From Desulfosudis oleivorans Hxd3 (GTDB lineage Bacteria > Desulfobacterota > Desulfobacteria > Desulfobacterales > Desulfosudaceae), in the NCBI RefSeq assembly GCF_000018405.1, contig NC_009943.1, positions 2,979,001 through 3,043,000 on the forward strand: a stretch of 64,000 nt of DNA, read 5' to 3'. Each line of letters starts with the position of its first letter. Within the stretch, counting starts at the first letter, position 1. Positions 58,466 through 60,896 of the stretch are shown here, piece after piece. Position numbers and translations under genes: made by a program. Under the pieces are notes generated by a model that was given only the letters and a program-made list of their open reading frames with translations, searched no databases and was not told the origin of the DNA.

Positions 58466-58633
58466 ATTGAGGGGAGGCCTCTACCCAACACGGGTGACAC
58501 GGGCAACTTATTGCCGGTGCCACCCACGGATATAAGTATCATGTCCCCGGAATACACCGGAATACACAATACACCGGAATAATGCCCCGGAATAATGCCG
58601 GAATACTGAAAAATTATGAGAGAGGAAACGGCT
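58466..58633. repeat. Short gap with CCGGAATA-type tandem units
   Basis: 58551-58608 contains repeats of CCGGAATACACAATACACCGG and CCCCGGAATAATG type. It also repeats the ACACGGGTGACACGGGCAAC text of 57660. Confidence 0.55.
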
Positions 58634-59533
58634 ATGTCTATGGCAAGAAATGTTTTGTTAGTCTTTTTAATTTGTTTTATTTGTAGTTGTCTTGGAACGC
58701 ATATTCAAAAAACTAATGGTATAGATTTTCAACAACCCAATTTGCCCGCTGGTTATAATAAAAAACATAAATGGATAGGAGAAAAAATAATATTTTTAAC
58801 TAGATATGAATCTGTTCAAGAATATGGATATCAAAACTATTCCTATAGAGAGAACAGCTTTTATCATCCTTCCTACAAAAAACTTGTTGGAAAAGTTGGT
58901 GAAATAATAGGTGCTAAAGAAGGATATCCAACTAAATTTATATTAAAATTAAACGATTCAAATAAAATCCTTTATACTACTGCATATGGCAACTCCCTCA
59001 ACGATATAGCTTTCCTTTCAGAAATGGATAATGCTAAAAAGTTTATTGGGAAAACGGTATGGAATAAAAGACATCCAACAGATGCTAGCGCAGATCGACA
59101 TGGTTATATCCGATGTCAACGTACAATAAATAAATTTGAAAAGTTGACTATCACTAATGTCAAATGGGGTTATGGTGAGCATAGTCCTTTAAGATTCTTT
59201 TTTAGAACAGAAGATGGCGTTGAAGGCTATTGGGATGGTAGTTTCAGTAGGATAAATGATTCATCAAATCATTTACTACAACCATTTGAAGAAAATTGGT
59301 ATTTTGAAGACCCTCATGCAATTTATCCAGATTGGCCTAAAAAAACCTGGGATGCAATTGAAGCGGGTAATATCTTTATTGGTATGACCGATGAACAGGC
59401 CAGTCTCTCTTGGGGAAAACCAAATAAAATTAATAAGACTGTGGGAAGTTGGGGAGTTCATGAACAATGGATTTATAACAATCAATATTTATATTTTGAG
59501 AATGGACGTCTTGAAAGTTTTCAAAGCTATTAA
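58634..59533 (+). CDS. Predicted lipoprotein with C-terminal BamE/SmpA-like domain
   Basis: A 299-residue protein. The start ATG 58634 has GAGAGGAAACGG upstream. The signal peptide ends in ICSC with Cys19 as a lipidation candidate. From about residue 240 to the end, GMTDEQASLSWGKPNKINKT, GSWGVHEQWIY and LYFENGRLESFQSY follow the BamE/SmpA-OmlA pattern. The rest is unrecognised. It is AT-rich, like its neighbours. A role in outer-membrane assembly or stability is a guess from the fold. Confidence 0.65.
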   Translation: MSMARNVLLVFLICFICSCLGTHIQKTNGIDFQQPNLPAGYNKKHKWIGEKIIFLTRYESVQEYGYQNYSYRENSFYHPSYKKLVGKVGEIIGAKEGYPTKFILKLNDSNKILYTTAYGNSLNDIAFLSEMDNAKKFIGKTVWNKRHPTDASADRHGYIRCQRTINKFEKLTITNVKWGYGEHSPLRFFFRTEDGVEGYWDGSFSRINDSSNHLLQPFEENWYFEDPHAIYPDWPKKTWDAIEAGNIFIGMTDEQASLSWGKPNKINKTVGSWGVHEQWIYNNQYLYFENGRLESFQSY

Positions 59534-59550: not shown

Positions 59551-60114
59551 ATGAAAAATCTTGAAGGAAAGCCTGCCGTTTTTTTCAGCCTTGACGACAT
59601 CAACGGGCATACCATCCGTCTTGACGACTACCAGGGGAACTGGCTGTTGATGGTGTTTCACCGCCATCTTGGCTGACTGCCCTGCCGGGCACACCTCACG
59701 CAGTTGCGTGAGCATGACGCAGACTTTGACAGGCTGAATGTGAAAATCGTTGTGGTTACATTTGAACCCGACTTTGCATCCATAAATTACATAAAAGAGA
59801 CCGCCCTGACATGGCCGCTTATTGTTGATGAAAATCGGGGGCTGTATAAAAGTTATGGGATGGATGAAGCTTCTTTTCTGGATATCTGGGGGCCAAAAAC
59901 ATGGCTGGCCTACACAAAGGCGATTATTAAGGGGCAGAAACTTAAAAAATCAGATGCTGATATTCGACAGCGGGGCGGGGATGTGCTGATCGACCCGGAG
60001 GGTATTGTGCGGATGCATCATGTGGGCGCGGGGCCGGGGGGCCGGCCCGGTGTTGAAAAAATTCTTAAAACGATAAAAGCGCAGGATAAGATACGAAAGC
60101 ATAAGGCGTCATGA
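59551..60114 (+). CDS. Probable selenoprotein: peroxiredoxin/thioredoxin-like protein with in-frame TGA (Sec42) in a UxxC motif
   Basis: Reading from ATG 59551, TGA at 59674-59676 is codon 42 of one continuous frame that ends at 60114 (187 residues). The sequence before it is KPAVFFSLDDINGHTIRLDD and FHRHLG; after it LPCRAHLTQLREHDADF. In AhpC/Prx-like proteins the same site is CxxC (RxxGCxxCR). Here it would be U42-L-P-C45. The rest (LTWPLIVDENRGLYKSYG, GGDVLIDPEGIV) is the Prx-like fold. A hairpin with a G in its loop sits 18 bases after TGA. AAGG lies upstream of the start. Stop suppression by frameshift is not needed, so selenocysteine is the best reading. A prediction program would likely report only residues after 51. 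Confidence 0.8.
59695..59712 (+). promoter_or_regulatory. Bacterial SECIS-like hairpin
   Basis: CTCACGC pairs perfectly with GCGTGAG around an AGTT loop (18 bases in all), starting 18 bases after the TGA. Bacterial SECIS elements are small stem-loops in this position with a G in the first two loop bases, here the second base. An alternative stem TGCCC/GGGCA at 59678-59691 competes with any extension. Confidence 0.55.
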
Positions 60115-60212: not shown

Positions 60213-60896
60213 TTACAGGAACTTCATGATTTGCTGGACATCGTCCCACACCGGGCGTTTGAGGGAGGGGTCGGACAGGATGTCCCGGGGATGCCAGGTC
60301 GGCATGACAGGAATATTCTGATAGTCGTGAAACCGGCCCCGCAGATGGTCCAGGGGGTCGTCCGCGCCAAGAAGGGCCTGGGCCGCGGTCTCTCCCATCA
60401 CCCAGATCACGGTTGGCTTGACCTTGCGGATCTCTTCTTCCAGAAAAGCGCGGCAGGCAACCAGGGCCCGGGGCGCGGGCTTCGCGTTTTCAGGCACGGG
60501 GCAACGGACCATGGCCGTGACAAACACCCGGTCCGGAGCCAGTTTCATGGCCAAAAGAATGCGGGTAAACAGCTCACCCTCATTGCCGGAAAACGGATCC
60601 CCGGCCCCCAGGGGTGAGTCGCTGACCACCATGAGCCGGGCCAGTGAGGGCCCCCGGCCATGGACCGGGCTGGGGCCGGCGGATGCAAGAGGGCACTGGT
60701 CGCACCCCTGTCGGACCGCGGTGCCCGGGTCCGGCGCCAGGCAGCCGGGCCGGTCCCACTGTGTTGCCATTGTAAGGGCCTCCCGGCTGCAATCAATGCC
60801 ATTCCTGCCGGAATCCGTATAAAATTGAAGGGTCCGGGCCACCTGGTCGAGCAGGTGGCAAACTTTCCGGGCAGTGATTTGTTGCGGGGTTGTCAT
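60213..60896 (-). CDS. Uracil-DNA glycosylase, family 4-like
   Basis: A 227-residue protein. A glycine-rich motif (PLGAGDPFSGNEGELF) replaces the usual GExPG...D-x-GxPFxGxxG, MVRCPVPENAKPAP with ACRAFL supplies cysteines of the 4Fe-4S cluster (with GCDQCPLA upstream), and VMPTWHPRDIL is the C-terminal HP motif. Family 4 enzymes remove uracil from DNA. An N-terminal stretch of about 70 residues is longer than in the shortest members. AGAGGCC lies upstream. Confidence 0.85.
   Translation of the reverse strand: MTTPQQITARKVCHLLDQVARTLQFYTDSGRNGIDCSREALTMATQWDRPGCLAPDPGTAVRQGCDQCPLASAGPSPVHGRGPSLARLMVVSDSPLGAGDPFSGNEGELFTRILLAMKLAPDRVFVTAMVRCPVPENAKPAPRALVACRAFLEEEIRKVKPTVIWVMGETAAQALLGADDPLDHLRGRFHDYQNIPVMPTWHPRDILSDPSLKRPVWDDVQQIMKFL

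Follow-up and report, generated by a model that had tools for sequence, protein, structure and literature searches.

A probable selenoprotein gene of the SelL-related redox family in Desulfosudis oleivorans Hxd3

A 64,000-nucleotide stretch of the Desulfosudis oleivorans Hxd3 genome (hereafter the window) carries a gene for a SelL-related redox protein that is interrupted by an in-frame TGA. This is very probably a real bacterial selenoprotein gene, in which the UGA would be read as selenocysteine (Sec) and would place the residue in a U42-L-P-C45 active site. Its frame and family, a SECIS-type hairpin with its covariation, the Sec genes of the host genome and the predicted fold are established computationally. 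The protein belongs to an already catalogued selenoprotein family, which gains in it a firmly supported member.

The gene and its in-frame TGA

The gene occupies positions 59551..60114 of the window (+ strand) and encodes 187 residues. Translation agrees with the original prediction of a single frame, running from ATG 59551 and containing only the TGA at 59674..59676 (+; codon 42, U42); no other stop lies within the 187 codons, and further frame damage is absent, as had been claimed. The terminal stop at 60112-60114 is also TGA. Aligned starts of relatives back ATG 59551 as the start, and the TGA-terminated end is close to the ends of the relatives in the alignment. Around the active site the translation reads RHLGU-L-P-C. 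The codon of C45, the second half of the UxxC motif, is located at 59683..59685 (+); this residue is invariant in 59 of 59 aligned sequences.

Sequence on both sides of the TGA had looked homologous, and the seven nearest relatives that a search of the phylum yielded are indeed 51-66% identical upstream and 57-61% identical downstream of it. The original prediction further held that gene callers would begin near 59704, past the active site. A 136-residue ORF does start at 59704, the first usual start after the internal TGA, but the codon is TTG, followed by the next in-frame start, GTG 59740, and not the "GTG or ATG" that had been named.

Relatives and the SECIS-type hairpin

The family model NF040769 was searched against 194 genomes of the order and 395 of the phylum. 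Matches over the cut-off occur in 16 of the 194, each containing exactly one TGA, and the window gene is the sole ULPC form among these 16 matches; the same-family genomes searched, G070 and G111, have no NF040769 match over the cut-off. Nine of the 395 genomes of the phylum search exceed it, eight with TGA and one with Cys. Seven of these matches and the window gene form one group, all U-L-P-C, with 58-62% identity between the window protein and the seven other members. Identity to the UPFC and UPFA members of the same order is 21-28%.

What homologues carry at position 42 was one of the checks proposed originally, and the answer is Sec (TGA) or Cys throughout. One extracted set has TGA at the site in 31 of 31 homologues, and a further set of 27 loci has TGA in 18 and Cys in nine (one of the nine, L101, does contain a TGA, but close to its start); none of the extracted relatives has Trp there. 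A single-sequence scan of genome contigs gave no relative of the window protein, and a scan of named genomes with an eight-member alignment gave 103, of which the best 80 were analysed. TGA stands at codon 42 in all of these 80, which is more than chance would produce. The search does not favour this outcome, because one of its patterns omits residue 42 and the other spells Cys. The titles of the 80 relatives name Deltaproteobacteria groups, Acidobacteria, Planctomycetota, Gammaproteobacteria and others. Plasmid records yielded six matches of 23-28% identity, and a scan of viral contigs yielded no relative. In a tree of the window sequence and the 80 relatives, the placement of the former is not firm (support 0.76 and 0.45 at the nearest nodes); horizontal transfer of the gene is possible on this sequence evidence.

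A check for a SECIS element around the TGA had been proposed, and a covarying SECIS-like hairpin is present within the coding sequence at 59695..59712 (+), beginning eighteen bases 3' of the UGA. Its seven pairs and loop read CTCACGC-AGTT-GCGTGAG. The apical loop AGTT (59702..59705, +) is identical in 81 of 81 sequences, namely the window gene and the best 80 of the 103 relatives. Overlapping the loop is a Leu codon, TTG (59704..59706, +), the false start that a gene caller could choose; it is likewise kept in 81 of 81 genes, whereas TTG accounts for 205 of the 1691 other Leu codons in the same genes.

Covariation was assessed in the window gene and the 80 relatives minus one duplicate row, amounting to 560 pair cells. 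Of these, 95.0% are paired, compared with 19.5-67.3% when the hairpin is slid out of register, and two-sided changes occur at five of the seven pairs; in 21 of 80 rows the outermost pair does not form. Changes on both sides affect 130 cells (shuffle mean 41.6), a count reached, like the covariation score of 0.557, by 0 of 500 shuffles. The five measures include two weaker ones: 9 of 500 shuffles have as many pairs with two-sided change, and 60 of 500 have as many further pair types. As the relatives are not independent and kinship was ignored, all these shuffle counts overstate significance and are not probabilities. Among 5000 synonymous recodings weighted by family codon use, 16 equal the natural sequence in hairpin stability and 119 in the fold of the whole stretch. 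The fold of the 51-base stretch stands out only modestly from dinucleotide shuffles (z -1.95), of which 8 of 200 fold as well.

The hairpin is not formed in the nine more distant Cys homologues, which lack CAGTTG and pair at 2-4 of the 7 positions. The order's 14 UPFC members and one UPFA member, L045, do have CAGTTG at this position and form 5-7 of the pairs; at these columns the sequence is different in the remaining UxFA members listed. The ULPC subgroup is thus represented, in the best 80 of its 103 relatives, by members from several phyla that all have Sec and never Cys, with an unusually uniform SECIS, and it makes a good test case for what Sec offers beyond Cys. In short Prx-like UPFC selenoproteins (L095-L098 and L100; the UPYC protein L099 is excluded), CAGTTG again follows the UGA at this position, as though several subfamilies had one SECIS loop in common.

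Decoding of the UGA codon

The genome searched, a single contig of 3.94 Mb, contains all four sel genes whose presence had been proposed as a check: selA (597.3 bits), selB (373.7 bits; the one SelB over the cut-off), selD (374.4 bits) and selC, the canonical tRNA-Sec (75.1 bits). Both SelA and the canonical tRNA-Sec look intact. The Sec reading of the TGA, as first proposed, finds support in these genes, in the covarying hairpin and in the TGA of 80 out of 80 relatives (best 80 of 103). Codon 42 would be decoded by tRNA-Sec and SelB, the latter recruited by the stem-loop 18 bases downstream of the UGA. In the selD match L028 there is an in-frame TGA inside the match; SelD selenoproteins are known.

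A second tRNA-Sec-like gene with UCA anticodon is present in the genome at 3561047-3561140 on the minus strand (L020; L182:7048-7141; RF01852, 54.7 bits), with T73 and no encoded CCA. It folds well, having G1:C72, a four-base D loop and a long variable arm. When it is read with 8/4 arms, as published, the eighth acceptor pair is mismatched (A-G); when it is read 7/5 (ARAGORN), no pair is broken. Its neighbours are a ferredoxin-thioredoxin-reductase-type gene and a glutaredoxin gene, and no SelB match lies in the 14 kb around it. The family-mate G111 has a similar tRNA, with CCA (L262); the stretches of the two genomes that hold these tRNAs show no synteny.

Such additional tRNAs recur in the order, where a tRNA-Sec match was obtained in 160 of 194 genomes and more than one in 20 of these. 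These 20 genomes and three with one weak match were re-searched, and 21 matches were examined: one lower-scoring match from each of the 20 genomes (that of the window included) and the best match of G152; some further matches, for example in G005, G094, G015 and G128, lie outside this set. Eighteen are SelC-like (17 with UCA, one with GCA) and three are tRNA-Trp or tRNA-Ser. The second UCA tRNA of the window genome is more loosely like 16 others of the 21, one per genome. In 17 of the 18 SelC-like copies the 3' end consists of T and then CCA (in G021 the T counts as position 73 solely if a mismatched first pair is allowed), the exception being the copy of the window genome, with T but without CCA. 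Within the stretches fetched, a SelB relative is found near 15 of the 18 SelC-like loci and is absent from those of the window genome, G111 and G021 (4.5 kb for G021).

Reviews (PMC7609411, PMC11415595), in the portions available, describe in Desulfobacterales a selC* tRNA-Cys with U73 and UCA, accompanied by selB* and CysRS*, and the decoding of Sec UGA as Cys through SelB. Fifteen loci of the order (L248-L254, L256, L257, L260, L263-L267), each with a SelC-like U73 tRNA (14 UCA, one GCA) near a SelB relative, match these selC*-selB* descriptions as far as the accessible text gives them. The window genome has the SelC-like tRNA with UCA and U73, but has no selB* beside it within 14 kb. Two CysRS over the cut-off are encoded in the genome, neither near the second UCA tRNA. 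Domain searches identified a cysteine synthase (PALP)-CysRS fusion of 771 aa (L184:589-2904; CysRS match at genome 1392668-1394065); besides this fusion, an ordinary CysRS sits elsewhere in the genome.

Because the second UCA tRNA resembles the selC* tRNA-Cys, partial Cys insertion at the window UGA is possible. The codon might be read wholly or partly as Cys by a selC*-type tRNA-Cys(UCA) acting via SelB at the SECIS, so that the protein would have UxxC or CxxC according to conditions. In favour of this reading are the features of the tRNA itself, namely T73, G1:C72, its good folding and its likeness to the copies of G111 and of the other genomes, and the reports of selC* tRNA-Cys in this order and of Cys at Sec UGA. 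Its probability is nevertheless very small, given that the encoded CCA of the 17 other SelC-like copies is missing, that the eighth acceptor pair is an A-G mismatch in the 8/4 reading (with none in the 7/5 reading), that the 14 kb around the tRNA contain no SelB match while 15 of the 18 SelC-like loci have one, that the genome has one SelB over the cut-off, and that canonical tRNA-Sec and SelA look intact. In addition, the CysRS fusion keeps a match to the anticodon-binding CysS_C domain, unlike the CysRS* reported in the available text of the reviews, which is without this domain, and the TGA is kept across relatives of several phyla, whose selC* status was not part of the search. Since the selC*-like tRNA lacks both an encoded CCA and, in 14 kb, a selB-like gene, it is unlikely to dominate decoding at this UGA. 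The copy is possibly in decay; alternatively, it might function together with the ordinary SelB.

A related scenario, to which we assign a small likelihood, is that Sec and Cys are both inserted at this one SECIS-marked UGA. Here tRNA-Sec would compete, through one shared SelB, with the selC*-type tRNA-Cys(UCA), for which the cysteine synthase-CysRS fusion might be the charging enzyme, and the resulting mixture of U and C at the site would shift with selenium supply. The presence of a U73 UCA tRNA beside tRNA-Sec in one genome makes Sec-versus-Cys decoding at a single codon testable.

Translation as Sec is also to be weighed against termination, in which a nonsense mutation or sequencing error would leave a 136-residue remnant from TTG 59704. 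The standard code does read UGA as a stop and the remnant ORF exists, but the conservation of this TGA in 80 of 80 relatives (best 80 of 103), the similar identity on its two sides, the constraint on the TTG and hairpin and the presence of Sec genes make this scarcely conceivable; a pseudogene was rejected, as was a sequencing error, since one common to 80 relatives is not credible. A general reassignment of UGA in the genome, for example to Trp, would fit the open frame around the internal TGA, but its probability is negligible, as the window gene itself stops at TGA close to the ends of its relatives and the extracted relatives show TGA or Cys at the site, never Trp; the Cys at this position in nine homologues contradicts it, and it was rejected.

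Family, fold and genomic surroundings

With the TGA read as a residue (U as C), the window protein matches NF040769 (SelL-related redox protein) over residues 8-174 of 187 with 203.9 bits, the curated cut-off being 120 bits, and PF00578 with 71.8 bits. Thirteen further NCBIfam models were listed, with peroxiredoxins and ResA among them, and none reaches its own cut-off. NCBI thus already has a model for the family, and nothing tested separates the window protein from it. A literature search for "SelL-related" with "selenoprotein" found no paper. The motif of SelL proper is UxxU. SelL has a related name and likewise Sec at the first motif position, but differs at the second, which in the window protein is C45.

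Prx-like thiol:disulfide oxidoreductases (UxxC / UxxU; Kryukov and Gladyshev 2004) are listed in the accessible part of PMC13188914, so that selenoproteins of this fold are indeed established, as the original prediction had assumed. Passages of two further papers report Prx-like UxxC selenoproteins for Geobacter, Syntrophus and Desulfotalea (PMC1794560) and from ocean samples (PMC2398784). By the descriptions in these passages, to which the likeness is confined, the published proteins have in common with ours the PF00578 domain, the UxxC motif and overlapping bacterial groups. Genomes with multiple tRNA-Sec genes are known too, according to the available portion of PMC5330540. As both Prx-like UxxC selenoproteins and multiple tRNA-Sec genes have already been reported, the window gene adds to a known family and is not a new one.

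An AlphaFold2 model built with 59 sequences (pLDDT 84.8, pTM 0.83) places residue 42 in a loop directly before helix 43-54. Its Foldseek neighbours are thioredoxin and peroxiredoxin folds, including human PGFS, Bcp, AhpC and ResA. Human prostamide/PGF synthase (9usa), which we take to be PRXL2-type, has the fold in common (TM-score 0.74, rmsd 1.8) and a C44/C47 pair in its title; it differs in having Cys instead of Sec and is 21% identical to the window protein. In a profile alignment with ResA / TlpA thiol-disulfide oxidoreductases, residues 5-105 align and UxxC falls over CxxC, residues 42 and 45 taking the places of the two cysteines, which agrees with the proposal of U42-L-P-C45 as the redox site. 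The window protein nonetheless scores 49 bits against a ResA cut-off of 170 in NCBIfam, and its C-terminal part is longer. Typical peroxiredoxins have the motif PxxxT/SxxC, which by eye is absent here: the sequence around residue 42 is HRHLGU, with no P or T at the expected places.

We propose that the protein, as a member of the SelL-related / Prx-like UxxC selenoprotein family, would act as an oxidoreductase with a thioredoxin fold. It is probably cytosolic, as no signal-like N terminus is apparent by eye. The U42 selenolate, at the start of the active-site helix, would attack an oxidised substrate, either a disulfide or a peroxide, C45 would resolve the intermediate as a selenenylsulfide, and a reductant of thioredoxin, glutaredoxin or flavoenzyme type would presumably restore the protein.

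The surroundings of the gene were compared within 2.5 kb on each side, 51 of 80 loci having the full span on both sides; no clustered gene family was shared by more than eight loci. In the window, 58616-59533 has no family match, and a uracil-DNA-glycosylase-type gene lies at 60213-60896 on the strand opposite to the selenoprotein gene. Five relatives of Geobacter/Desulfuromonas type (L110, L115, L118, L124 and L131) have an FAD oxidoreductase gene and a VTT-domain gene upstream of the ULPC gene and a radical SAM gene downstream, a cluster that the window locus does not share. The families, named from L110 alone, are NF004991, PF09335 and TIGR04167 (ArsS). As a weak clue, the cluster suggests a redox or arsenic/selenium-related role in the five relatives that bear it.

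A paralogue in the same genome (L010, genome 1571660-1572154, minus strand) also has an in-frame TGA, in the motif U-M-F-A, giving a Sec without a resolving Cys at +3. The UxFA form recurs in genomes of the order, for example in L045-L050, L053, L054, L056 and L059. The predicted hairpin of L010 is closer to its UGA.
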